DNA of 46,756 nucleotides from a virus: the IMG/VR virus record IMGVR_UViG_3300047462_000753, positions 1 through 46,756 of that record. The stretch is one strand, 5' to 3'. Positions 3,824-34,253 of the stretch are shown piece by piece. Both the position numbers and the translations under genes were made by a program. Under the pieces are notes generated by a model, which saw only the letters and a program-made list of their open reading frames with translations, was not told where the DNA came from and ran no database searches. Positions within the stretch are counted from its first letter, which is position 1; every line of letters begins with the position of its first letter.

Positions 3824-4303
3824 ATGGCAGGGGGGAAGGAAACGGTCGGCGCGATGCTGGCGCTCGATCTCGGGACAAGCTGCGGCTATGCCGTGCTGCC
3901 ACCGGGCGGGAGCGTCATCAGCGGCACCATCGACCTGAAGTCGCGCAGGTTCGAGGGCGGCGGGATGCGCTATCTGCGCTTCCGTCGCCAGCTCGACGAG
4001 ATGCTGGCGACCTATGGCCGTTTCCATCAGATCGTCTTCGAAGAGGTCCGGCGCCACCAGGGTGTCGATGCGGCGCATGTCTATGGCGGCCTGCTGGCCA
4101 TCCTGGCGACATGGGCTGAAGAGCGGTCCATCCCCTTCGAGGGCGTGCCGGTCGGCACCTGGAAGAAATCCCTGACCAAAAACGGCAACGCCAGCAAGCA
4201 GTTGGTGAAGGAAACCGTCTGCCGCCTTGGTTTCCCCGTCGAAGGTTTCGACGAGGCGGATGCCGTCGGCATCCTGCTCTGGGCTGAGGAGCGAGTCGCA
4301 TGA
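3824..4303 (+). CDS. RuvC-like Holliday junction resolvase
   Basis: 159 residues with an RNase H-like fold. The acidic catalytic residues are in place: Asp15 in LALDLGT, Glu73/Glu74 in IVFEEVRRH, and Asp143/Asp146 in FDEADAVGI. Phage RuvC-type enzymes cut branched DNA formed during recombination or replication and clear it before packaging. The ATG at 3824 follows AAGGGC; a later ATG at 3854 would still keep the first Asp. The stop overlaps the methyltransferase start as ATGA. Confidence 0.85.
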   Translation: MAGGKETVGAMLALDLGTSCGYAVLPPGGSVISGTIDLKSRRFEGGGMRYLRFRRQLDEMLATYGRFHQIVFEEVRRHQGVDAAHVYGGLLAILATWAEERSIPFEGVPVGTWKKSLTKNGNASKQLVKETVCRLGFPVEGFDEADAVGILLWAEERVA

Positions 4304-6285
4304 AGGATCTGTTCGGAGAACTGCCAGAGATCCGCAGGGCTTTGGGCCGCGAGATCTTCATCGTCGGCTTCGCTGGCGGCGGCGGCTCATGCGAAGGCGT
4401 CAGGATGGCGACCGGTCAATCGCCGGACGAGGCGCTGAACCATGACGAAGAAGCCATCGCCATGCACATGGTCAATCACCCGACCACGCGGCATTGGTGC
4501 CAGAACATCTGGCAGGCGATCCCGTCCGACGTTGCCGCTGGCCGGCCGATCGGCGGCGCCTGGTTCTCGCCAGATTGCAAACATTTTTCGAAGGCCAAGG
4601 GCGGCAAGCCGCGGTCGAAAAACATCCGCGATCTGGCGTGGGTGGTGCTGGGCTATGCCGAGTTGCCCAAGCACATCCGCCCCCGGGTGATCTGGCTGGA
4701 GAACGTCGAGGAATTCAAGACCTGGGGCCCGCTTCTGCCCGATGGCCAGCCCGATCCGGCACGCAAGGGCGAGGAATTCGAGCGCTGGTGTGCCGCGTTG
4801 CGCAAGACCGGCTACAAGTTGGAATTCCGCGAGCTTCGCGCCATGATCTATGGCACCCCGACGATCCGCAAGCGGCTCTACATGATCGCCCGGTGCGATG
4901 GTCAACCCATCGTGTGGCCGGAAGAGACGCATGGCCCAGGCAAGCTCGCCTATCGCACGGCGGCCAGCGATGTCATCGACTGGTCAATCCCGTGTCCGTC
5001 GATCTTTGATCGCAAGCGCCCGCTCGCCGAGGCGACCCTGCGACGCATCGCGGCTGGGCTGCGGCGCTTCGTGCTGGAAAACCCGAAGCCGTTCATCGTC
5101 CCGGTGACCCACCAGGGTGATAGCCGAAATCACAGCACGGACGAGCCGCTGCGCACCATCACTACGGCTCAGCGCGGCGAGTTCGCGCTCGTCACGCCAC
5201 ACATCCAGCGCCAATTCGGCGCAAGCGTAGGGCACGGTGTCGACGAGCCGGCCGGGACCGTAACGGCGGGCGGCGGCGGAAAATCCGCGCTCGTTACAGC
5301 GATGCTGACCGGCTGCGGAGGCCGTGCCGGGCAGTCGCCGCCGCGCTCCGTCGAAGCGCCAATGTCCACCGCCACCACCAAGGCCGACCAGATCCTGGTG
5401 CATGCGCACCTGATGACGATGCGCAACGCGGAGAAGCCGTTCAACGAGGCGGACAAACCCACCCACACGATCACCGCCGGCGGCGCGCACCTCAATCTCG
5501 TCGCCGCCACGATGGTGCAGACCGGCTATGGCGAACGGGAAGGTCAGGCGCCGCGTGCCCTTGATGTCGAGAAGCCGCTCGGCACTGTCGTCGGCGATCA
5601 GAAGCATGCGGCGGTGACGGCGTTCCTGGCCAAGCACTATGGCGGCAATGAAACGCCCGGCTGGCCGGCCGATGCCCCAATCTCGACAGTTACAACCCAG
5701 GATCACCACCACCTGGTGACTGCTCATCTCGCCCAGCATAACAGTGACACCTACCCGAAACCGGGCCGTCCCGCTGATGAACCGATCAGCACGATCACCG
5801 CATCCGGAACCCAGCAAGCCGTCGTCACCAGCCACTTGATGAAACTGCGCGGCACGGAAGACAGCCATATCGAAAGCTGCTCGACGAGTGCGGAAGAGCC
5901 GACGGCGACGATCGCCGCCGAGGGCAACCATCTCGCCGAGGTCCGAGCCTTCCTGATCAAATATTATGGAACCGGCGCTATCGGCCAGCCGGTCAACGAG
6001 CCCCTGCATTCGGTGACATCGCTCCCGCGCTTCGGCCTGGTGACGATTGAGGGGACGGATTACGAGATCGTCGACATAGGCATGCGGATGCTGACGCCGC
6101 GCGAACTGTTCCGCGCCCAAGGCTTCCCCGACAGCTACATCATCGACCTCGAATTCAAGGGAAAGCCCCTATCCAAAGCCAGCCAAGTCCGCATGGCCGG
6201 CAATAGCGTCTGCCCGCCCGTCGCCGCGGCGCTGGTACGCGCCAATTATCAGCCCGTCATGCTGGCGCAGGAAGCCGCGGAATGA
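4300..6285 (+). CDS. C5-cytosine DNA methyltransferase with repeat-rich middle region
   Basis: A 661-residue S-adenosylmethionine-dependent enzyme. It shows motif I (VGFAGGGGSCEG, residues 22-33), a catalytic-loop variant with Cys93 in SPDCKHFS replacing the usual PPCQ context, motif VI ENV (134-136), RKRLYMIAR (motif VIII) and C-terminal LTPRELFRAQGFP and AGNSVCPPVA (motifs IX-X). Normal C5 methyltransferases are 330-450 residues. The excess lies at residues about 270-585, where nine degenerate units of roughly 35-40 residues follow one pattern, (D/E)-x-P-x-x-T-(I/V)-T near the start and LV-x-x-H/F-L near the end. That stretch occupies the target-recognition region. It is probably used to protect phage DNA from host restriction; the target sequence is unknown. 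Confidence 0.9.
   Translation: MKDLFGELPEIRRALGREIFIVGFAGGGGSCEGVRMATGQSPDEALNHDEEAIAMHMVNHPTTRHWCQNIWQAIPSDVAAGRPIGGAWFSPDCKHFSKAKGGKPRSKNIRDLAWVVLGYAELPKHIRPRVIWLENVEEFKTWGPLLPDGQPDPARKGEEFERWCAALRKTGYKLEFRELRAMIYGTPTIRKRLYMIARCDGQPIVWPEETHGPGKLAYRTAASDVIDWSIPCPSIFDRKRPLAEATLRRIAAGLRRFVLENPKPFIVPVTHQGDSRNHSTDEPLRTITTAQRGEFALVTPHIQRQFGASVGHGVDEPAGTVTAGGGGKSALVTAMLTGCGGRAGQSPPRSVEAPMSTATTKADQILVHAHLMTMRNAEKPFNEADKPTHTITAGGAHLNLVAATMVQTGYGEREGQAPRALDVEKPLGTVVGDQKHAAVTAFLAKHYGGNETPGWPADAPISTVTTQDHHHLVTAHLAQHNSDTYPKPGRPADEPISTITASGTQQAVVTSHLMKLRGTEDSHIESCSTSAEEPTATIAAEGNHLAEVRAFLIKYYGTGAIGQPVNEPLHSVTSLPRFGLVTIEGTDYEIVDIGMRMLTPRELFRAQGFPDSYIIDLEFKGKPLSKASQVRMAGNSVCPPVAAALVRANYQPVMLAQEAAE
5110..6055 (+). 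repeat. Nine degenerate protein repeats inside the cytosine methyltransferase
   Basis: Unit cores seen in order: DEPLRTITTA, DEPAGTVTAG, EAPMSTATTK, DKPTHTITAG, EKPLGTVVGD, DAPISTVTTQ, DEPISTITAS, EEPTATIAAE and NEPLHSVTSL. Each is followed after about 8-12 residues by a hydrophobic LV/AV element such as LVTAHL, and by a variable linker. Unit spacing is about 33-40 residues. The DNA is diverged between units, so this is an old amplification rather than a recent slippage array. Confidence 0.8.
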
Positions 6286-8843
6286 ACGCCATCGCGCCCG
6301 CCGCCGACTATCAGAGTTTCCTCAAGGCCAAGATCCGCCTCGCCGGAGCCGAAGGGTTCGACGTCGATCTGGCCGACATCAATCCCGAGTTGAAGCCGCA
6401 CTGCCGGGCCATTATCCGCTGGGCTCTGGCTGGCGGCCGGCGTGCCATCTTCGCCGCCTTCGGGCTGCACAAGACCTGCATGCAGATCGAGATCATGCGC
6501 CTGGTCGGCCGGCACATTGGCGGTCGTCGACTGATCGTCCTGCCGCTGGGCGTGCGCCAGGAATTCTTCCGCGACGCCCGCGAGCGGTTCCACGGCGAGT
6601 TCGCGGTCAAGCTGAAGTTCATCCGCTCGGCCGCCGAGATCGAAGGCGATGACCTGATCTATCTCACCAATTATGAGACGATCCGCGACGGCAAGCTCGA
6701 TCCGAGGCTCTTCGCTGCCGCCAGCCTGGACGAGGCGTCCTGTCTGCGCAGCTATGGCAGCAAGACCTTCCAGGAGTTCCTGCCGCTGTTCGAGGGCGTC
6801 CGGTTCAAATATGTGGCCACGGCCACGCCGTCGCCCAACCGCTTCAAGGAACTGATCCACTATGCCGGCTTCCTCGGCATCATGGACACCGGCCAGGCCC
6901 TGACGCGCTTCTTCCAGCGCGACAGCAGCAAGGCCGGCAACCTCACTCTCTATCCCCACAAGGAGGAGGAGTTCTGGCTGTGGGTCCACTCATGGGCCCT
7001 GTTCATCCAGCGGCCGTCCGACCTCGGCTTCAGTGACGAAGGCTATGACTTGCCGCCGCTGGTGGTGCGCTGGCATGAGGTCAAGGTCGATATCTCGGGC
7101 ACCGAGGTCGAGCGCGACGGCCAGGGCCGCATGTTCCGCGACGCTGCCATCGGCGTGCAGAATGCCGCCCGCGAGAAGCGGGACAGCCTGCCGGCGCGCA
7201 TCGCCAAGCTGGTCGAGATCCGGAAGGCCGAGCCGAATAACCATTTCCTGCTGTGGCATGACCTTGAGGCCGAGCGCCACGCGATCGAAGCGGCGCTGCC
7301 GGGCGTGACCACCGTCTATGGCTCCCAGGATCTGGACGTGCGCGAAAAGGCCATCATCGAATTCAGCGATGGGCTGATCCGCGACCTCGCGGCCAAGCCG
7401 GTGATCGCCGGCAGCGGCTGCAACTTCCAGCGCCATTGCCACCGGGCCGTCTTTGCCGGCGTCGGCTTCAAATTCAACGACTTCATCCAAGCCATCTATC
7501 GCCTGCAGCGCTTCCAGCAGCAGCACCCCGTCGAGATCGACGTCATCTACGCCGAAACCGAACGCGAGGTCCGCCGCGACCTGGAGACGAAGTGGGCGCG
7601 CGACAGGGAGATGCGCGCGAAAATGAGCGAGATCATCAGGAAATTCGGGCTCGACCAGTTGCCCATGCACGAAGCCCTTTCGCGGTCGATCGGCGTCGAG
7701 CGGATCGAAGTCCGCAGCGACAGGTTCCGCGTGGCCAACAACGACGCCGTCGCCGAGGCCCGGCTGCAGCCGGAGAACTCGGTCGACCTGATCGTCACCA
7801 GCATTCCCTTCGCCAACCATTATGAATACACGCCGAGCTATAACGACTTCGGCCACACCGAGGACAACGCCCATTTCTGGGCGCAGATGGATTTCCTCAC
7901 GCCCGAGCTGCTGCGGATCCTGAAGCCCGGCCGGCTCGCCTGCATCCACGTCAAGGACCGGATCCTGTTCGGCAATGTCACCGGGAAGGGTGTTCCGACC
8001 AGCAGCCCCTTCCACGCCGAGGCCATCGCACATTATGCGGGCATGCCGGAATTCGGGATCAAGGGGCACGGCTTCGACTATCTGGGGCTGATCACCATCA
8101 TCACCGACGTGGTCAGGGAGAACAATCAGACCTACCGCCTCGGCTGGTCGGAGCAGTGCAAGGACGGCACCAAGATGGGCGTCGGCTCGCCCGAATATGT
8201 GGTGCTGGTCAGGAAGCCGCAGACCGACCGGACGCGCAGCTACGCCGATCTTCCGGTGGTCAAGGACAAGGCGGACTATTCCCGCGCCCGTTGGCAGGTG
8301 GACGCCCACTCCTTCTGGCGGTCGAGCGGCAACCGCCAAATGACCGCCGAGGAGCTGGCACTGCTCGGCCCCGGCAAGCTGGCCACCGCCTTCACCGATT
8401 TCAGCCTGGCGCAGATCTACGATTACGAATTCCACGTCAAGATCGGCGAGGAACTTGACCTCCGCAGCGCGCTCCCCAGCACCTTCATGTCGCTGGCACC
8501 CGGCTCCCACAATCCCGATGTCTGGCACGATGTCCAGCGCATGCTGACGCTGAATGGCGAACAGGCGAAGCGCGCCGTCGAGCAGCATGTGTGCCCGCTC
8601 CAATTCGACATCGTTGATCGCCTGATCGAGCGCTACAGCAATAAGGACGAGGTGGTCTATGACCCCTTCGGCGGCCTGATGACCGTCCCCTACCGGGCTA
8701 TCCTCAAAGGTCGGCGCGGCCAGGCATCTGAACTATCGGCCAGCTACTTCTTCGACGGGGTTCACTATCTGCAGGCGGCGGAGAAGCAAGTCTCGATGCC
8801 GACGCTGTTCGACCTCATGGCGCCCGGCGAGGCTGCCGAATGA
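6282..8843 (+). CDS. SF2 helicase-DNA methyltransferase fusion
   Basis: 853 residues in two parts. Residues 1-470 are an SNF2-like helicase: motif I FGLHKT (Lys64), motif II LDEAS (about 149-153), motif III TATPSPN, and motif VI FIQAIYRLQRFQQ. Residues about 475-853 are an N6-adenine/N4-cytosine-type methyltransferase in permuted order: catalytic-loop motif TSIPF (about 506) before the SAM-binding motif DPFGGLMTVPYRA (about 793). This architecture recurs in phages of alpha- and betaproteobacteria. The unusual residues, His in motif I and IPF for PPY, seem to be family features rather than decay. It may translocate on DNA while methylating, to evade restriction (inference). It overlaps both neighbours as ATGA. 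Confidence 0.87.
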   Translation: MNAIAPAADYQSFLKAKIRLAGAEGFDVDLADINPELKPHCRAIIRWALAGGRRAIFAAFGLHKTCMQIEIMRLVGRHIGGRRLIVLPLGVRQEFFRDARERFHGEFAVKLKFIRSAAEIEGDDLIYLTNYETIRDGKLDPRLFAAASLDEASCLRSYGSKTFQEFLPLFEGVRFKYVATATPSPNRFKELIHYAGFLGIMDTGQALTRFFQRDSSKAGNLTLYPHKEEEFWLWVHSWALFIQRPSDLGFSDEGYDLPPLVVRWHEVKVDISGTEVERDGQGRMFRDAAIGVQNAAREKRDSLPARIAKLVEIRKAEPNNHFLLWHDLEAERHAIEAALPGVTTVYGSQDLDVREKAIIEFSDGLIRDLAAKPVIAGSGCNFQRHCHRAVFAGVGFKFNDFIQAIYRLQRFQQQHPVEIDVIYAETEREVRRDLETKWARDREMRAKMSEIIRKFGLDQLPMHEALSRSIGVERIEVRSDRFRVANNDAVAEARLQPENSVDLIVTSIPFANHYEYTPSYNDFGHTEDNAHFWAQMDFLTPELLRILKPGRLACIHVKDRILFGNVTGKGVPTSSPFHAEAIAHYAGMPEFGIKGHGFDYLGLITIITDVVRENNQTYRLGWSEQCKDGTKMGVGSPEYVVLVRKPQTDRTRSYADLPVVKDKADYSRARWQVDAHSFWRSSGNRQMTAEELALLGPGKLATAFTDFSLAQIYDYEFHVKIGEELDLRSALPSTFMSLAPGSHNPDVWHDVQRMLTLNGEQAKRAVEQHVCPLQFDIVDRLIERYSNKDEVVYDPFGGLMTVPYRAILKGRRGQASELSASYFFDGVHYLQAAEKQVSMPTLFDLMAPGEAAE

Positions 8844-13685: not shown

Positions 13686-14348
13686 ATGTCGAGCCAATGG
13701 TACGCAATCCGCACCGAGACGGGCCGTGAGCTTTCTGTGGCCAAAGAACTGCGGCCTGATAAGGAAGTCGAGGTCGATGAATATTTGGGCCGGCCAGACG
13801 CGGACATTTACTTGCCGATCTGCGAGAGCCTGGGCGTGCTGCCTGAATGCGGCCTGACCGTGAAGGGGACCATCCTGCCGAGTTATCTCTTCGTCCGAAC
13901 CGATGCGGTGGGGCGGCTGATATCGCAGATCAGGGAGATCGCCGAGCGGCGCGGGATATGGATCAGCATCATGCGAAGCCCGATGAACCCGCTTCCGGTG
14001 TCGGACGATGCGATCAAGGACATGCGCTATGAGTGCGAGAAGCTGATCAGGCAGACATCCGAGACACCGGATCTGGACTGGATGCTCGGCAAAACCTTCA
14101 AGATCCAATCCGGCACCTGGGCCGGCTATGAGGGGCCGTGCTGGAGCTTCGACAAGAATAATCAGCCGAAAATCGCCCTGCCCGTGTGCAAGGTGATGAC
14201 GCCGGTTCCGATCCCGCTCGACTGCCTGTGCCTGACGCCGGTGCAGGAGCAAACACAACATTTTGTTGATAGCTTTCGGAAGAAGCACTATAAGTCGAAG
14301 CAATCAACAAGGCGGAAAAGCCGAAACACTCTGGAGGTGGCCCTATGA
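13686..14348 (+). CDS. Phage NusG paralogue (NGN + KOW-like), putative antiterminator
   Basis: 220 residues. The N-terminus (WYAIRTETGRELSVAKEL ... ILPSYLFVRTD) is a NusG N-terminal domain, the part that binds the clamp helices of RNA polymerase. Residues about 137-175 (GKTFKIQSGTWAGYEGPC) have the KOW pattern of a fold that contacts ribosome, Rho or RNA. NusG/RfaH-type paralogues change pausing and termination. It sits between the early operon's terminator-like hairpin and the terminase genes, the position of a late antiterminator (Q-like role). GGGGGATC precedes the ATG. The function in late transcription is an inference from fold plus position. Confidence 0.8.
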   Translation: MSSQWYAIRTETGRELSVAKELRPDKEVEVDEYLGRPDADIYLPICESLGVLPECGLTVKGTILPSYLFVRTDAVGRLISQIREIAERRGIWISIMRSPMNPLPVSDDAIKDMRYECEKLIRQTSETPDLDWMLGKTFKIQSGTWAGYEGPCWSFDKNNQPKIALPVCKVMTPVPIPLDCLCLTPVQEQTQHFVDSFRKKHYKSKQSTRRKSRNTLEVAL

Positions 14349-14904: not shown

Positions 14905-16390
14905 CCGGGAGCAGTATCGGCAACTGAGGGGCGTGTGGCGGAAGCAGCCGGAACTCTATGTCCGGCACCGCCTGGGATTGAACCCGACCGGCCAGCAACG
15001 CGAACTGCTCTCGGCCATCTCACCCTCCGGCGCCAAGGTCAGCGCCCGCGCCGGCCACGGTGTCGGCAAATCGGGCGCGACGTCGGGCATCATCCTTTGG
15101 CACCTAGAGTGCTTCGACTATAGCCGCATCGTCGCCACGGCGCCGTCGGCCAGCCAGCTATACAGCGTGCTGTGGGCGGAACTGGCGAAATGGATCCGCC
15201 GCGGCGACGAGAAGGCGAAGGCCGATGGCCTGCCCTCGGAACTGTGGCTGTCGAGCCTGTTCGGCGTCACTCAGGACCGTGTCTATGACAAGGGCGCGCC
15301 GACCGAATGGTTCGCGGTGGCGCGCACCAGCCGCAAGGAAAACCCCGACGCCCTGCAAGGTTTCCATGCCTCTGACGTCGATATCAGCGCGGACGGCAAC
15401 GCGGCGATCCAGCGCAGCGACGGCGGAGGCTCCATTTTGTTTGTGATCGAAGAGGCATCCGGTGTTCCGGACGTGATCTTCGAGGTGGCGGAAGGCGCTC
15501 TGTCGAGCCCGGGCGCGCGGCTGCTGATGATCGGCAACCCGACGCGCAACACCGGCTTCTTCGCCAGGTCGCATAAGCAGGACCGATCGTCCTATAAGAC
15601 GCTCCATTTCTCCTGCAGCGATTCTCCGCTGGTGGACAAAGGCTATCGGGCGTCGCTGGTCAAGAAATACGGCGAAAACTCGAACATCGTCCGAGTGCGC
15701 GCCGACGGGGAATTCCCCAAGCAGGATGACGACGTGCTGATCCCGCTCGAGGCGGCGGAGGCGGCGCTGACACGCGAGCCCAGGCCGTCTACCGGCAAAC
15801 GGATCCTCGGCGTTGACGTGGCGCGCTACGGCGATGACCGGACGGTCTTCGTGCTGCGCGCCGGCACCACGATCGAGCACATCGAGATCGCCTCGAAACA
15901 AGACACGATGGTGACGGCCGGCCGGGCCGTGGCGCTGCGTCGGGAACTGAATGCCGACGCGATCCATGTGGACGTAATCGGCGTCGGCGCCGGTGTCGTC
16001 GACCGCCTCAAGGAAGTCAAGCAGCCGGTGGTGGCGGTGAACGTCGCCGAGGCCGCGCCCGAGCGCCGCAAGTCCAAGATCGATGCCCAAGGCCTGCGCC
16101 TGCGCGATCATCTGTGGCTGGAGATGCGGGACTGGCTGGCCGATGAAGAGCCGTCGTTCGTCGGCGCCGAGGGCGAACATGCGCAGGATCTGGCGGGCGA
16201 ACTGGCCAGCGTCAAATACAAATTCGATAGCTCCGGCCGGATCGTTGTGGAGAGCAAGGACGAGATGAAAGCCCGCGGATTGCGATCCCCTGATATTGCC
16301 GATGCGCTGGCGACGACCTTCGCTCCCGGCGGCGGCCGGCTCACGATCAGCGACGCTGCGCTGGCGAATATCAAGCGTCGGCGCCGATAG
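14885..16390 (+). CDS. terL: Terminase large subunit
   Basis: 501 residues. The ATPase has Walker A GHGVGKS (57-63), Walker B ILFVIEEASG (about 183-192) and the coupling region NPTRNTGFF. The RNase H-like nuclease follows with Asp in LGVDVARYGDDRTV (about 308-321), DVIGVGAGV and Asp in DIADALATTF. It pumps DNA into the prohead and cuts concatemers. The catalytic set is complete, so it should be active. Its stop overlaps the portal start by one base. Confidence 0.96.
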   Translation: MPITKDDREQYRQLRGVWRKQPELYVRHRLGLNPTGQQRELLSAISPSGAKVSARAGHGVGKSGATSGIILWHLECFDYSRIVATAPSASQLYSVLWAELAKWIRRGDEKAKADGLPSELWLSSLFGVTQDRVYDKGAPTEWFAVARTSRKENPDALQGFHASDVDISADGNAAIQRSDGGGSILFVIEEASGVPDVIFEVAEGALSSPGARLLMIGNPTRNTGFFARSHKQDRSSYKTLHFSCSDSPLVDKGYRASLVKKYGENSNIVRVRADGEFPKQDDDVLIPLEAAEAALTREPRPSTGKRILGVDVARYGDDRTVFVLRAGTTIEHIEIASKQDTMVTAGRAVALRRELNADAIHVDVIGVGAGVVDRLKEVKQPVVAVNVAEAAPERRKSKIDAQGLRLRDHLWLEMRDWLADEEPSFVGAEGEHAQDLAGELASVKYKFDSSGRIVVESKDEMKARGLRSPDIADALATTFAPGGGRLTISDAALANIKRRRR

Positions 16391-18375
16391 TGACGTCTGC
16401 CCCCAGCAGCGGCCGGGCTCGCCAGCCTCGGGTTCCCCGCAAGCGGCCGAAGATGCATATCAGCGACATGGCGATGGTCCGTGCGCGCATGCGCCGGTCA
16501 TCGAAAGGCGTGCCAGCGCAGGATGCCGTCAGCCTGTTCAAGATGGCGCAGCATCCACCCGGCGTCGCGCCGAAGATGGCGATGGACGATCCGTTCGGCG
16601 GCCTGGCCGGCTGGGCGGGAACCGCACTCGCTGGGGCCATGATCGAGGGTCAGACCTTCATCGGCTATCCGGTGCTGGCCGAGCTGGCGCAGCGCCCGGA
16701 ATATCGGCGCATCAGCGAAGTGATCGCCCGCCATATGACCCGGAAGTGGATCAAGTTCCGTGCCGTAGGCGAAGACGATAAGGGCGACAAGATCGCTGTC
16801 ATCGAAGAGGCGATGAAGCGGCTTAATGTCCGCGAGGTCTTCCGCAAGGCGGCCGAGCAGGATGGCTTCTTCGGGCGCGGGCACCTCTATCTCGACTTCG
16901 GCACCACCGATGACCGGGACGAGCTCAAGACGCCAATCGGCGATGGTCACGATCAAATCAGCCGGTCGAAGGTCGCCAAGGGAAGCTTGAAGCGCCTGAA
17001 GCCGATCGAGGCGGTCTGGTGCTACCCGACCAGCTACAACTCGAACAATCCGCTGAAGCCGGAATGGTACAAGCCCAACGCCTGGTTCGTCATGGGCACG
17101 GAGATCCACGCATCGCGCCTGCTGACCTTCATCGGACGCGAGGTGCCGGACCTGCTGAAGCCGGCCTATTCGTTCGGCGGCCTGTCGCTGTCCCAGATGG
17201 CGAAGCCCTACGTCGATAATTGGTTGCGCACCCGCCAGAGCGTTGCTGACATCATCAGCTCCTTCTCGGTTTTCGTGCTGAAGACCAACGCCCTAGAATC
17301 CCTCGCACTCAATGGCGAGGACGTCATGAAGCGGGCGGATATCTTCAACGCCTGCCGTGACAATGCCGGCGTGATGATTGTCGACAAGGAAACTGAGGAT
17401 TTCGCCAACGTGGCGGCTCCTCTCTCGGGATTGCATGAGCTGCAGGCGCAGACCCAAGAGCATATGGCCGCAGTGTCGGGCATCCCGATCGTCGAACTGC
17501 TGGGCATCCAGCCGGCCGGTCTGAACGCCTCTTCCGAAGGCGAGATCCGGACCTTCGAGGACTGGATACACTCGTCACAGGAGACGCTGTTCCGCCCCAA
17601 TCTGACGCGGATTGTCGGTTTCATCCAGCTTTCCGAGTTCGGGGAAGTGGATCCGGACATCACCTTCGAATTCGAGCCGCTGCGCGCTCTGGACGAGAAG
17701 GAAATGGCCGAGATGCAATTGACCAAAGCGCAGACCGACGCCGCTCTGGTTGATGCTGGCATTATTTCGGCGACGGACGCCCGCCAGCGGCTATCCGACG
17801 ATCCCGATAGCCCTTACCAGGGCCTGGACCCCGACGATACGCCAGCACCGGATATCTCCGAATTGCTGGGCGGCGCTGGCGAAGCTGGCAAGCAGCCCGG
17901 TGCCGAGGAGTATGACCAGGCCGCCGCCGATTGCGATCTCGGCGCGGACGGCGAATGGGAAGAGGCCAAGCACCCGCGCGGCGAAGGCGGCCAGTTCGGC
18001 TCCGGTGGCCAGGGCGGTGGCGAGTTCGATCCGCACGCCGAAGCCGCCAAGGGCGCCGAGGCGATGGATAAGGTCATCTCGTCGAAGGCCGATGTCATGA
18101 GCGCCATGACGCGGCCGGAGATAGGCGCGATCGACTTCCGCTGGGGCGACAAAAACGGCGGCATTGCGCACATCATTGCCAAGCGAGGCGAAGGTGCGGC
18201 CAAGAAAATGTCCGACGTGTTAGCCCACGGCAAAGTGTCAGTCGGCGTCACGCGGCAGGGTCGGACGCGAGTTCAGATCGCGCATGGCGGCTGGGTGGCA
18301 TCTCTTTCACCGGACTTCCATGGGGAAGCTGGTCACTGGTTGGTGACAGGCTTTGAGCAGGAAGAGGGGAAATGA
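16390..18375 (+). CDS. DUF1073 portal protein with C-terminal PBECR-type nuclease-like domain
   Basis: 661 residues. Residues about 50-470 are a DUF1073/anti-CBASS-Acb1-family-type portal (YRRISEVIARHMTRKWIKF, HLYLDFGTTDD, SFSVFVLKTNALESLALNGE, GLNASSEGEIRTFEDWI), the ring through which DNA enters the head. After a hinge (EAKHPRGEGGQFGSGGQGGG, about 528-547), residues about 575-661 read IGAIDFRWGDKNGGIAHIIA, SVGVTRQGRTRVQIAHGGWV and HWLVTGFEQ. This order is typical of the phage Barnase-EndoU-ColicinE5/D-RelE-like (PBECR) nuclease superfamily, usually fused to MuF proteins. The start is GTG; ATG 16453 is an alternative. A portal carrying this domain could inject a nuclease (inference). Confidence 0.85.
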   Translation: MTSAPSSGRARQPRVPRKRPKMHISDMAMVRARMRRSSKGVPAQDAVSLFKMAQHPPGVAPKMAMDDPFGGLAGWAGTALAGAMIEGQTFIGYPVLAELAQRPEYRRISEVIARHMTRKWIKFRAVGEDDKGDKIAVIEEAMKRLNVREVFRKAAEQDGFFGRGHLYLDFGTTDDRDELKTPIGDGHDQISRSKVAKGSLKRLKPIEAVWCYPTSYNSNNPLKPEWYKPNAWFVMGTEIHASRLLTFIGREVPDLLKPAYSFGGLSLSQMAKPYVDNWLRTRQSVADIISSFSVFVLKTNALESLALNGEDVMKRADIFNACRDNAGVMIVDKETEDFANVAAPLSGLHELQAQTQEHMAAVSGIPIVELLGIQPAGLNASSEGEIRTFEDWIHSSQETLFRPNLTRIVGFIQLSEFGEVDPDITFEFEPLRALDEKEMAEMQLTKAQTDAALVDAGIISATDARQRLSDDPDSPYQGLDPDDTPAPDISELLGGAGEAGKQPGAEEYDQAAADCDLGADGEWEEAKHPRGEGGQFGSGGQGGGEFDPHAEAAKGAEAMDKVISSKADVMSAMTRPEIGAIDFRWGDKNGGIAHIIAKRGEGAAKKMSDVLAHGKVSVGVTRQGRTRVQIAHGGWVASLSPDFHGEAGHWLVTGFEQEEGK

Positions 18376-29539: not shown

Positions 29540-31366
29540 ATGTCCAGTCTGGGACTTCCCGTATCTCGCCTCATCAACGTCACGGTGAACGTCTCACCCT
29601 CTGGCGCTTCCTATCAGAATTTCAATAACGCGCTGATCGTCGGCACCTCGCAGGTGTGCGACTTGACGCAGCGCCTGCGCACCTATAATTCGCTGACCGC
29701 GGTGGCCAACGATTTTGGCACCGTCGCGCCCGAATATCTGGCCGCGTCGCTCTGGTTCGGCCAATCGCCGGCGCCGACGACGCTGCTGATCGGCCGCTGG
29801 GCACAGGCCGCGGCCTCGGGCCAGTTGATCGGCGGCGGCCTGACCACCGCGAACTCGGCCATTGCCACCTGGCAGGCGATCACCACCGGCTCGTTTGAAG
29901 TAACGCTGAATGGCGTGCCGAACAATATCACCGGCCTGAATTTCTCTGCGGCGTCGAACCTCAATGCGGTCGCGAGCACGATCCAGACGGCGCTTAACAC
30001 CGCGCTGGCTGGCACGACCTGTGTCTACAACAGCATCTACAATAATTTCGTCATCACGTCGGCCGGGTCGACTGGCGTGGCGTCGACCGTCAGCCTCCTG
30101 AATGCGACCACCGCGCTCGGCACGATCACCTTCAGCGCCGCGCCGGCCAACAACGACACGGTGACCGTGAATGGCGTGGTCATCACCTGGGTGACCTCGG
30201 GCGCCACCGGCAATCAGATCAATATTCCTGGCACCGCCGCACTCGCCGCCGCCGCTTTGCAAACGTTCCTGGCGAGTTCGAGCAATCCCTTGCTCACGGT
30301 GATGTCCTATACCAACCCTGCGAGCGCGCCGACCGTCGTTTATTGCTTGGCGACGACCAGCGGCTCCGGTGGCAATAGCTACACGCTGGCCAAGACTTCG
30401 ACCGCCATCACCGTGTCGGGCGCGACCCTGACGGGCGGCGGTGTCGGCACGGCCATCAACACCATGCTGTCCGGTACCACCGCGCTGGGGGCCTATACCG
30501 CGGCCGGCCAGGCGGCGGAGAGCGCGCTCGCGGCCGTCACCGCCATGGACAACCTCTATCCCGGCTATTGGTACGGCCTGGTAGTGCTGGGCGCGGCCGA
30601 CACCGATCACACGGCGATTTCGACCTATGTCGAAGCGGCATCGGTGGCCCGTCACTATTACGGGGTCACCACCCAGGAAGTTGGCGCCCTGCTGTCGACC
30701 TCCACCACGGACGTCGCCTACCTCCTGCAGCAGCTCGCGAACAACCACACCGCCTGCCAGTATTCGAGCCAGAACCCCTATGCGATCGTCTCGTACCTGG
30801 CCCGGATCATGACCACGAACTGGACCGGCACGAACACGGCCATCACGCTGATGTACAAGGCCGAGCCGGGTGTGACGCCGGAGACGCTGACCAGCTCGCA
30901 GATCGCCGCCCTCGAGGGCAAGAACTGCAACGTCTATGTGAATTACAACACCGGCACGGCCATCATTGAGCAGGGCAAGTCGGTTTCCGGCCTATTCACC
31001 GACCTGATCATGGGCTTGGACTGGTTCGCCAATTACGCCCAGATCAACATCTATAACCTGCTCGCGTCGGTGAACAAGATCCCGCAGACGGATGCCGGCA
31101 TGAGCCAGATCGCCGCCGTGCTGGCGCAGGCGTGCCAGCAGGCCGTGACCAACGGCTTGGCCGCTCCCGGCGTGTGGACCGCCACCGGCTTCGGCCAGTT
31201 GGCCACCGGCGATGCGCTGCCCAAGGGCTTCTACATCTATCAGCCGCCGGTGAGTTCGCAATCGGCGACCGCCCGCGCCGCACGCCAATCCGTGCCCTTC
31301 CAGATCGCGCTTAAGCAAGCCGGCGCCGTCCACAACGTGGCCGTGACCGTCAACGTCAATCAGTGA
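29540..31366 (+). CDS. Contractile tail sheath (DUF3383) with inserted domain
   Basis: 608 residues. The N-terminus (SRLINVTVNVSPSGASYQNF, APTTLLIGRWAQAA) and the C-terminus (GLDWFANYAQINIYNLLASV, NVAVTVNVNQ) match DUF3383, the sheath of Pam3- and Mu-like short contractile tails. The segment at about residues 190-300 (NNDTVTVNGVVITWVTSGAT and SYTLAKTSTAITVSGATLTG) is an inserted beta domain that would point outwards. Sheath contraction drives the tube through the envelope. Confidence 0.9.
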   Translation: MSSLGLPVSRLINVTVNVSPSGASYQNFNNALIVGTSQVCDLTQRLRTYNSLTAVANDFGTVAPEYLAASLWFGQSPAPTTLLIGRWAQAAASGQLIGGGLTTANSAIATWQAITTGSFEVTLNGVPNNITGLNFSAASNLNAVASTIQTALNTALAGTTCVYNSIYNNFVITSAGSTGVASTVSLLNATTALGTITFSAAPANNDTVTVNGVVITWVTSGATGNQINIPGTAALAAAALQTFLASSSNPLLTVMSYTNPASAPTVVYCLATTSGSGGNSYTLAKTSTAITVSGATLTGGGVGTAINTMLSGTTALGAYTAAGQAAESALAAVTAMDNLYPGYWYGLVVLGAADTDHTAISTYVEAASVARHYYGVTTQEVGALLSTSTTDVAYLLQQLANNHTACQYSSQNPYAIVSYLARIMTTNWTGTNTAITLMYKAEPGVTPETLTSSQIAALEGKNCNVYVNYNTGTAIIEQGKSVSGLFTDLIMGLDWFANYAQINIYNLLASVNKIPQTDAGMSQIAAVLAQACQQAVTNGLAAPGVWTATGFGQLATGDALPKGFYIYQPPVSSQSATARAARQSVPFQIALKQAGAVHNVAVTVNVNQ

Positions 31367-31376
31367 GGACTGACCC

Positions 31377-31814
31377 ATGAGCACTTATAGCTTCGTCGAC
31401 GTTGCTTGCAGCATTACCGGCCCCGGCGGCTCTTGCCAGCTTGGCACCGGCGGCGGGACGGCCGAAGAAGGCATCACGATCACCAAGGAGGATAAAAACT
31501 CCCAGATCATCGGTGCCGACGGCACGGTGGCAAACGTCCTGCACCCAAATGAGAACGGCAAGATCACGGTCCGGCTGCTCAAGACGTCGAACAGCAATGC
31601 CGTCTTGCAGGCGATGTATTCGTTCCAGCGGACCTCGGCGGCCAATTGGGGGCAGAATGTCCTCACGCTGACCGACGTCGCTTCGGGTGACCAGTACACC
31701 TGCACCGGCGTGGCCTTCAAGAAATTCCCCGAGAACCTCTATGCGAAGGAGCCACGGCCCGTCGAATGGGAATTCGAAGCCGCCTTCATCGATCCGGTGC
31801 TCGGCACATGGTAA
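31377..31814 (+). CDS. Tail tube protein (DUF3277)
   Basis: 145 residues: MSTYSFVDVACSITGPGGSC, EDKNSQIIGADGTVANVLHP, NENGKITVRLLKTSN and AFIDPVLGTW. This is DUF3277, the tube subunit that always follows a DUF3383 sheath. It polymerises around the tape measure. GAGGA lies 8 bases before the start. Confidence 0.9.
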   Translation: MSTYSFVDVACSITGPGGSCQLGTGGGTAEEGITITKEDKNSQIIGADGTVANVLHPNENGKITVRLLKTSNSNAVLQAMYSFQRTSAANWGQNVLTLTDVASGDQYTCTGVAFKKFPENLYAKEPRPVEWEFEAAFIDPVLGTW

Positions 31815-32248
31815 CCGCCGATCTCGAACTGAAGGGTGTCTTCTATCACATCGGCAAGCTTGATGTGCGCACCCAGCAGCGTGTCGCCTGGAAGCTTGGC
31901 GGCACCCGGGCGGGGATGTATGCGGACATGCGGGCCTCGGACAACCCGATGGCGGAATTCCTCCCGCTGTTCCTGGTTCTCTCGGCCCTTCCGCCGCAGG
32001 ACGCCGACTTCATCATCGACACCTGCTTGGCCGTGGTCACCCGCAAGGATGGGCAGAGCTGGGCCCGGCTTATGGCCACCAACGGCGCCCTGATGTACGA
32101 GGACATCGACGTCGAGGTGATCCACCGTCTGGTGGACAAGGCCTTGGAGTTCAACCTCGGCAATTTTTTCGCCACGCTCCGCCAAGATACGACCGGACCC
32201 CAGGCGGAGTCGACGGCGTCGAATGGGTCCGGCACCCAGACGGCCTAG
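31808..32248 (+). CDS. Tail assembly chaperone (G-like), 0-frame product
   Basis: 146 residues, starting inside the tube gene's last codons. It is helical (TQQRVAWKLGGTRAGMYADM, VIHRLVDKALEFNLGNFFAT) and in the place where all long-tailed phages carry their G-type chaperone, just before the tape measure. A slippery T-TTT-TTC lies at codons 119-121 (32164-32170), and a share of ribosomes should slip to the -1 frame to make a longer G-T-like fusion. The chaperone coats the tape measure during tail assembly and is absent from virions in lambda. Confidence 0.85.
   Translation: MVTADLELKGVFYHIGKLDVRTQQRVAWKLGGTRAGMYADMRASDNPMAEFLPLFLVLSALPPQDADFIIDTCLAVVTRKDGQSWARLMATNGALMYEDIDVEVIHRLVDKALEFNLGNFFATLRQDTTGPQAESTASNGSGTQTA
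32164..32170 (+). promoter_or_regulatory. -1 programmed frameshift slippery heptamer
   Basis: T TTT TTC in the chaperone frame, a canonical X-XXY-YYZ site. After a -1 slip the frame stays open for 78 codons. A stem begins six bases downstream. Confidence 0.85.
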
Positions 32249-32406
32249 ACTGGCTGTACCGCCCCCTGCTCAGGGGCATGTGCAAAATCGAAAGCTACAA
32301 GGACGGGTCGATTGATCTCCTCGATGTGACGGAGATGAACGAGATCATCGACATGCAAAACGAAAACGAGCAGCGCGCCCTGAGCGCCGTGAAAAGGGAT
32401 CGATAA
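32170..32406 (+). CDS. T-like frameshift extension of the tail assembly chaperone (DUF6889-like)
   Basis: Read only after the -1 slip at 32164-32170. It adds 78 residues to the first 121 of the chaperone, for a 199-residue fusion. The conserved part is WLYRPLLRGMCKIESYKDGS, then IDLLDVTEMNEIIDMQNEN. On its own it could start only at the ATG at 32278 (42 residues), which would cut off the conserved WLYRPLLRG. It ends in TAATG with the tape measure start. In lambda the T part contacts the tube protein while G binds the tape measure. Confidence 0.8.
   Translation, partial: RHAPPRYDRTPGGVDGVEWVRHPDGLDWLYRPLLRGMCKIESYKDGSIDLLDVTEMNEIIDMQNENEQRALSAVKRDR
32177..32209 (+). promoter_or_regulatory. 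Stimulatory stem-loop for the frameshift
   Basis: CTCCGCC (32177-32183) pairs perfectly with GGCGGAG (32203-32209), with one more possible G-U pair and a 19-base loop. The stem starts six bases after the heptamer, within the distance expected for a -1 stimulator. Confidence 0.7.
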
Positions 32407-34253
32407 TGGCCGCCACCGACACGATCAAGGAGTTCCTCGTCGGTCTCGGCTTCAATGTCGATACCGATGGGCTGAAGCGCTTCGTCGGTGGCGTTGAGTC
32501 GGCGACAAAGGCGGTTACCGGGTTCGGCGTTGCCGGCCTGGCCGCCGCGACCGCCATCGAGGCGATGGTGACGAAGACCTCCAATCAAATGGAGAGCCTT
32601 TATTACGCATCGCAGCGGATTGGTGCCTCGACGGATGGCATCCGATCTTTCCAATATGCCGCCGAACAGGTCGGCATCAGTTCGTCGACGGCCATGGGCG
32701 AGATTGAAGGTCTGGGCATGCGCCTGCGCATGATGCCCGGCTTGATCAACCAGCTTCAGGGCGCGGGCGCCAACATGTTCGATAGCACCGGCAAGGCGCT
32801 GGAAACCCAGGAGCGGGTGTTCAACGTCATCGACATGCTGAAGCGCCGCTATGGCACTGAAGGGCCCGGCCTGATGATTGCGTCATCGATGGCGCAAATG
32901 TACGGCATGAACATCTCGCCGCAGGAGCTGCTCCAGCAGGAGCTTCATCTCGACGAGGAGCGCGCCAAATATCAGAAGCGCAGGGCGGAGATCAACAAGG
33001 CGCACGCCGGCACGGATCCGGACAGTCAGGCCTATCACCAATTCAGCAATGACGTCCGCGATCTCGACACGGCGTTCGGAGATCTCGAAAAGCGGATAGC
33101 CGATGACTTCCTGCCGATCGCCGACGAGGTGGTGAAGGACGTCACGGCGCTGGTGCGCTGGTTCATCGAAGCCGATAAGGCGACGGCGGGCTGGAATTTG
33201 AGCATGGTCGGTCTGGACGGCGCGCTCGGCAAGATCCCGCTCAGCATCGGCGCGATCGGCACCGCGATCGTGACGCTGTTCTCCGGCAAGGTGGCGGCGA
33301 AGTTCCTCGGCAGGATCCTGGGCTTCTCGGCTGCGGAAAAGGTGGCTGCTGCCGCAGCGGGTGCCGGTGCTGCTGGCGCTGGCGCGGCGGGGGCATCGAC
33401 GGCCGCCGCAGCGGGTGCCGGTGAGGCGGCGGCAATGGCCCGGGTCGCTGCTCGCGTCGCCGCAACAGGGGCGGCAGAAGGGAGCGCGCTCGGCGTGGTA
33501 TCAGCGTTGGCGGCACCGCTAACCGCAGCTTATGTGGCGCTCAAGCCAACCAGGCTTGGCGATGAGGAGGATACCCCCGAGGCCAAGGCGTGGCTGGCTT
33601 CCCATCAGCGCGAGAAGTTCGACCGGGTGTCCCGCCTGAAGCAGGCGTTCTCCTATTATGTGTCGCGTGGCTGGTCGAAGGAACAGGCCAGCGGCATCGT
33701 CGCCAACATCCAGGCGGAGTCTGGCTTCGATGCGGCTGCCTCCGGCGACAACGGCAAAGCCTTCGGACTGTTCCAGTGGCATAAGGACCGGCAGAACGCA
33801 TTTCAGAAGCTGTTCGGCCACAACATCGCCGACTCGACTTTCGACGAGCAGCTTCAGTTTGCCGACTATGAGATGAGATCCGGCGGCGAGCAGACGGCTG
33901 GCGCCGATCTCGCTAAGGCGAATTCGGCCGGAGCCGCGGCGAAAATCGTAAGCCTGGAATATGAGCGGCCCGCAGCAGGCGCGGCAGCCGCCGCGCAACG
34001 AGCCGACATGGCCGACCGCATCTTCGCCGACAATATGTTCAACGCCCCTCTGGCCCCCAGCCCGATGCAGCTCGGCCAGAGCCAGAACGTGACGTTGAAC
34101 CAGAAGACCGACATCAACATCGTCGGCGGTCCGACTGCACAGGCCACGGCCGACAAGGTCAAGCTGGCCCAGGATGCGGTTTGGCCGAATGCAGTCCGCA
34201 ATCTCGCCAATAACGTGATCGGGCCGCCGGCCGCCGCTGGGGGAACGCCGTGA
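32406..34253 (+). CDS. Tape measure protein with tail-lysozyme domain
   Basis: 615 residues. The N-terminal helical part (TIKEFLVGLGFNVDTDGLKR, FVGGVESATKAVTG) is a short tape measure, followed by an Ala/Gly-rich hydrophobic segment (about 280-390). Residues about 400-520 (YYVSRGWSKEQASGIVANIQ, AESGFDAAASGDNGKAFGLF, QWHKDRQNAFQKLFG) are the phage tail lysozyme domain, with the likely catalytic Glu in QAESGF. It sets tail length and helps cut peptidoglycan during entry. At about 1.5 angstrom per residue the tail would be roughly 80-90 nm (inference). Confidence 0.88.
   Translation: MAATDTIKEFLVGLGFNVDTDGLKRFVGGVESATKAVTGFGVAGLAAATAIEAMVTKTSNQMESLYYASQRIGASTDGIRSFQYAAEQVGISSSTAMGEIEGLGMRLRMMPGLINQLQGAGANMFDSTGKALETQERVFNVIDMLKRRYGTEGPGLMIASSMAQMYGMNISPQELLQQELHLDEERAKYQKRRAEINKAHAGTDPDSQAYHQFSNDVRDLDTAFGDLEKRIADDFLPIADEVVKDVTALVRWFIEADKATAGWNLSMVGLDGALGKIPLSIGAIGTAIVTLFSGKVAAKFLGRILGFSAAEKVAAAAAGAGAAGAGAAGASTAAAAGAGEAAAMARVAARVAATGAAEGSALGVVSALAAPLTAAYVALKPTRLGDEEDTPEAKAWLASHQREKFDRVSRLKQAFSYYVSRGWSKEQASGIVANIQAESGFDAAASGDNGKAFGLFQWHKDRQNAFQKLFGHNIADSTFDEQLQFADYEMRSGGEQTAGADLAKANSAGAAAKIVSLEYERPAAGAAAAAQRADMADRIFADNMFNAPLAPSPMQLGQSQNVTLNQKTDINIVGGPTAQATADKVKLAQDAVWPNAVRNLANNVIGPPAAAGGTP

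Follow-up and report, generated by a model that had tools for sequence, protein, structure and literature searches.

A probable -1 frameshift joining a tail assembly chaperone to a DUF6889 extension in an IMG/VR virus, with comparative support from related loci

How might a single tail assembly chaperone gene yield products of two lengths? The slip sequence of phage lambda is GGGAAAG. E/E' of phage P2 resembles the locus in the window (the whole 46,756-base stretch of an IMG/VR virus record analysed here; GC 63%) in its -1 frameshift, contractile tail and slip site of the T TTT TTN type, but the P2 chaperone belongs to a different family. Frameshifting of the G/GT kind is widely conserved among long-tailed phages (PMC5009743), as an earlier note on this DNA had stated. 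The lambda G/GT genes resemble the window in that the chaperone lies just 5' of the tape measure gene and has a short and a -1 extended product (PMC5009743); the likeness is one of arrangement, and no relation in sequence is claimed. The same note had counted Mu among the phages in which this frameshift is conserved. Mu also makes its chaperone in two lengths by frameshifting, but its shift is -2 (PMC5009743), and it is therefore a loose parallel and not a precedent for the -1 shift predicted in the window, whose tail genes are of KPP10/E217-type families.

A frameshift of this kind is already known in relatives of the window, being annotated in Klebsiella phage Mulock and, in the case of Burkholderia phage Magia, published (PMC7883833 mentions its chaperone frameshift product). 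In both phages (CPT_Mulock_015 and PQC04_gp15 of Magia), the tape measure chaperone frameshift product is annotated as a joined coding sequence. Their chaperones are homologous to that of the window, with about 30-33% identity, and they share with it the gene order, the -1 relation, a DUF6889-type extension and a slip at homologous codons. In contrast, the slip sequence itself differs (GGAAATTTTTTG in Mulock, CCCTTTT in Magia and AATTTTTTC in the window), as does the sequence downstream of the slip. Among 20 annotated relatives that we examined, a joined product was present in two, a separate truncated reading frame in eight, and the extension was absent from the annotation in the other ten. 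The DUF6889 extension was thus missed or truncated in 18 of the 20, which bears out the expectation that simple gene calling would do so.

The tail block of the window runs in the order sheath, tube-like protein, chaperone, tape measure, Dit-like protein, hub and baseplate J (Table 1), and the chaperone gene sits between the tail tube and tape measure genes, as in G/GT-type loci. Because these genes match KPP10/E217-type families, we take the tail to be contractile and of a KPP10/E217-like rather than a Mu-like type.

Table 1. Coordinates of the chaperone locus and of the candidate frameshift signals in the window
Feature	Position	Strand	Remarks
Sheath	29540-31366		DUF3383
Tail tube-like protein, KPP10_Orf10 family	31377-31814	+	Pfam PF11681, 167.7 bits; directly 5' of chaperone
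0-frame tail assembly chaperone (G-like product), 146 aa	31808-32248	+	Phage_TAC_15; PHROG 1688
GGAG, candidate Shine-Dalgarno-like stimulator	32146-32149	+	14 nt 5' of heptamer; suggestive only
Slippery heptamer T_TTT_TTC	32164-32170	+	In frame; T_TTT kept in 96/107 dereplicated relatives
-1 frame extension (T-like part), 78 aa + TAA stop	32170-32406	+	PHROG 4364; Pfam DUF6889
5' arm of 7-bp stem, CTCCGCC	32177-32183	+	Local chance probability about 1%; not conserved
3' arm of 7-bp stem, GGCGGAG	32203-32209	+	Pairs with 32177-32183
Tape measure protein with tail lysozyme domain	32406-34253	+	PHROG 9570, E 3.9e-42; Pfam Phage_lysozyme2; 3' of chaperone

The chaperone reading frame begins with ATG and ends with TAG at 32246-32248. 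Its product scores 63.9 bits against Phage_TAC_15 (PF21822; curated cut-off 22) and also matches the tail assembly chaperones of PHROG 1688. When a viral library was searched by Foldseek with an AlphaFold model of this product (mean pLDDT 83.9), the model matched tail assembly chaperones of viruses (best E 1.7e-8). A search of PDB sequences found no relative, and a fold search of the PDB with the chaperone model gave nothing below E 0.38, the value of a match below significance to 5ir0 (ORF19 of a Vibrio cholerae PICI-like element; probability 0.92). Positions 31864 to 32403 are open in the -1 frame, whose TAA stop at 32404-32406 overlaps the ATG of the tape measure gene at 32406. The extension read in this frame scores 45 bits against DUF6889 (PF21829; curated cut-off 23.9) and matches PHROG 4364; its AlphaFold model has a mean pLDDT of 86.5 and gave no significant match in a fold search of the viral library. 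The +1 frame stops at 32313 and the extension lies in the -1 frame, so the locus is not of the Mu type, with its -2 (+1) shift.

The in-frame heptamer, the 0-frame stop after 146 residues and the 78 open codons in the -1 frame are all as first described, and so is the absence of any start codon for the motif WLYRPLLRG unless a shift occurs: upstream of it, the -1 frame holds no ATG, GTG or TTG, and the first such codon is the ATG at 32278, just past the motif. The extension is open in the -1 frame, overlaps the chaperone and lacks a conserved start of its own. The heptamer stands in the context AAC CTC GGC AAT TTT TTC GCC. In the window, TTT accounts for 21 of 194 Phe codons and AAT for 113 of 329 Asn codons, so that Asn-Phe would be expected to be written AAT TTT in about 4% of cases, and across 20 structural reading frames there is no second in-frame instance of TTTTTTN.

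We consider it very probable, from sequence comparison, that a G/GT-type -1 slip at T_TTT_TTC gives both a 146-aa chaperone and a 199-aa fusion of chaperone and DUF6889. We infer the occurrence and rate of slippage, its stimulator and the roles of the proteins. Most ribosomes would read the heptamer in frame and terminate at 32246, releasing the short form, while in a minority both tRNAs would re-pair, each on TTT, after a step back of one base, and translation would go on in the -1 frame to the end of the fusion. By analogy with lambda gpG and gpGT, coating of the tape measure protein would fall to the short form, and recruitment of tail tube subunits to the extra domain of the fusion. DUF6889, still described as of 'unknown function' and mentioned nowhere in the literature that we searched, would on this reading probably supply the T-like part of a tail chaperone.

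Single-sequence searches of IMG/VR and GTDB genomes with the window's own sequence found no relative. An alignment of the extension was used as the query, because the chaperone alignment was too poorly conserved for searching, and we collected 178 loci carrying both parts from phages, IMG/VR and GTDB genomes (107 after dereplication), with identities of 23-46%. Of the 178, 176 carry the extension in the -1 frame, and in 175 it overlaps the chaperone. An XXXYYYZ heptamer stands in frame within the overlap in 152 of these 175 loci; a further 21 have T_TTT, and two have neither. In the chaperone alignment, the slip codon falls at one position, where Phe is encoded by TTT in 160 loci and by TTC in five. 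After dereplication, TTT occupies this position in 97 of 107 loci, against 41% (236/572) of the other Phe codons of the same genes, and in 106 of the 107 it is preceded by T. The homologous codon pair reads T_TTT in 96 loci, against 14.4 +/- 3.3 expected when synonymous codons were drawn from the usage of each locus, with the limit that the loci share ancestry and are not independent trials. Despite this shared ancestry, we scarcely doubt, given an excess this large, that the codon pair is under selection. Moreover, the second -1-frame codon after the slip encodes Arg in 95 of the 107 loci (His in the window), which indicates that the -1 reading is conserved from the slip site onwards. These data give comparative support for -1 frameshifting across 178 loci of the Phage_TAC_15/DUF6889 chaperone family, and the earlier note's proposal for the tail chaperone is supported by position, homology and conservation alike. 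The sole relative with a +1 relation, L091:1113-1725, has near relatives (L097 and L099) that are in the -1 relation with GGGAAAT, and its +1 relation is therefore likely to be a sequence error or a mutation.

What might stimulate the slip? Downstream of the heptamer, a spacer of six bases (GCCACG, 32171-32176) is followed by the perfect 7-bp stem that had been noticed previously, which encloses a loop of 19 nt. Of 1000 shuffles, 11 produced a perfect stem of 7 bp or longer starting 5-9 nt downstream, as did 17 of 2000 random positions of the window, figures to be read in the light of the stem having been noticed post hoc; the fold energy z-score at the stem varied with the segment, between +0.15 and about -2. 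Seven of the 107 relatives had a perfect stem of 7 bp or longer in the range of spacings and loops searched, 44 had none of even 4 bp, and the search for a conserved downstream structure, including a conserved stem 5-9 nt downstream, found none. The mean z-score was -0.80 at +6, against about -0.3 at upstream controls, but it was -0.98 at +66. Thus, of the two elements whose conservation the earlier note had proposed to compare, the T_TTT core of the heptamer is conserved, whereas the exact TTTTTTC and the stem are not. Because the stem is not conserved, its role in frameshifting is unproven, and it may not be needed.

An alternative stimulator is suggested upstream, where dnaX has a Shine-Dalgarno sequence in an arrangement that the GGAG of the window resembles. 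Among the 107 loci, 30 carry Shine-Dalgarno-like tetramers at -20 to -13 from the slip codon, where synonymous choice alone predicts 18.2 +/- 2.9; in 500 synonymous draws the count never reached 30, although relatedness is uncontrolled in this comparison and the excess is modest. Such an upstream element is suggestive only.

Could the two domains be connected, or expressed, without ribosomal slippage? The extension might be a separate small protein translated from the internal ATG at 32278, possibly coupled to chaperone termination at 32246, so that no frameshift would be necessary. This ATG belongs to the -1 frame and has AGGGG immediately 5' of it, the Pfam match to DUF6889 starts right behind it at 32281, and short reading frames of the internal-start kind have been annotated in several relatives. 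However, only 1 nt separates AGGGG from the ATG, the Met is replaced by Ile, Leu, Val or Tyr in several relatives, and conserved residues are also present 5' of it, as far as the slip site. In the stretch from the slip site to the conserved domain, the -1 frame contains an ATG, GTG or TTG in 30 of 104 relatives, and in none of the 104 is a start there preceded by a Shine-Dalgarno-like sequence. An internal start would also leave the excess of T_TTT unexplained, and we regard this reading as very unlikely.

The run of six T's within GC-rich DNA raises the further possibility that RNA polymerase, and not the ribosome, slips and so joins the frames. This seems extremely unlikely, since many relatives have only four T's at the same codons (CCT TTT ATT or AAT TTT ATT), and the conserved feature is the codon phase, contrary to polymerase slippage. 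Four T's are too short a run for polymerase slippage as it is generally understood. That the frame break is merely a sequencing error, or a recent disabling mutation of a single fused gene, might be thought from two relatives (L101 and L125) in which both domains are fused in one frame. The recurrence of the same -1 relation in nearly all relatives refutes this reading in practice, and we give it almost no credence; besides, each of these fusions is accompanied by a separate chaperone gene and therefore represents a different arrangement rather than a single fused gene. Ribosomal -1 slippage at the heptamer is thus the reading that we favour.

These two relatives, which lack the slip site, combine a separate chaperone gene with an in-frame chaperone-DUF6889 fusion gene. 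In L125:494-1746 (NZ_FNHS01000025.1, a Methylobacterium phyllostachyos contig; the same as IMG/VR L187), a chaperone-only gene precedes a second one, which may start at a TGATG overlap and carries a chaperone-like part and DUF6889 in one frame. The chaperone-like part scores 17.3 bits, below the Pfam cut-off of 22, and matches the profile built in our analysis; no slip core was found in the overlap. In L101:1045-1737 (with L189:758-1342, IMGVR_UViG_3300034069_000558), the chaperone-only gene is followed by the hub and tape measure genes and then by the in-frame chaperone-DUF6889 gene, and the slip core is missing (GCC TAT CTC). This arrangement looks like a frameshift-free route to the same two products. 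Production of tail chaperones without frameshifting has been proposed for T4-like phages, judging from the title of Vladimirov 2022 as cited in PMC10885494. We tentatively speculate, while thinking it rather doubtful as a whole, that in the Phage_TAC_15/DUF6889 family the slip is driven by a U_UUU core together with a Shine-Dalgarno-like stimulator upstream of it, and not by a 3' stem, and that one lineage has exchanged the frameshift for a separate chaperone gene and an in-frame chaperone-DUF6889 fusion gene. L101 and L125 offer a natural comparison between frameshifted and separately encoded products.

Elsewhere in the window, a reading frame 5' of the packaging and structural genes (13686-14348) matches the NusG N-terminal domain (Pfam PF02357, 34.3 bits), and the reading frame of the portal protein (Phage_portal_3, 16390-18375) also encodes a C-terminal PBECR1 nuclease-like domain. 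Two DNA methylase genes adjoin one another: a C5-cytosine methylase gene at 4300-6285 is followed by an 853-aa reading frame at 6282-8843, with an N6_N4_Mtase match within the C-terminal part of its product.
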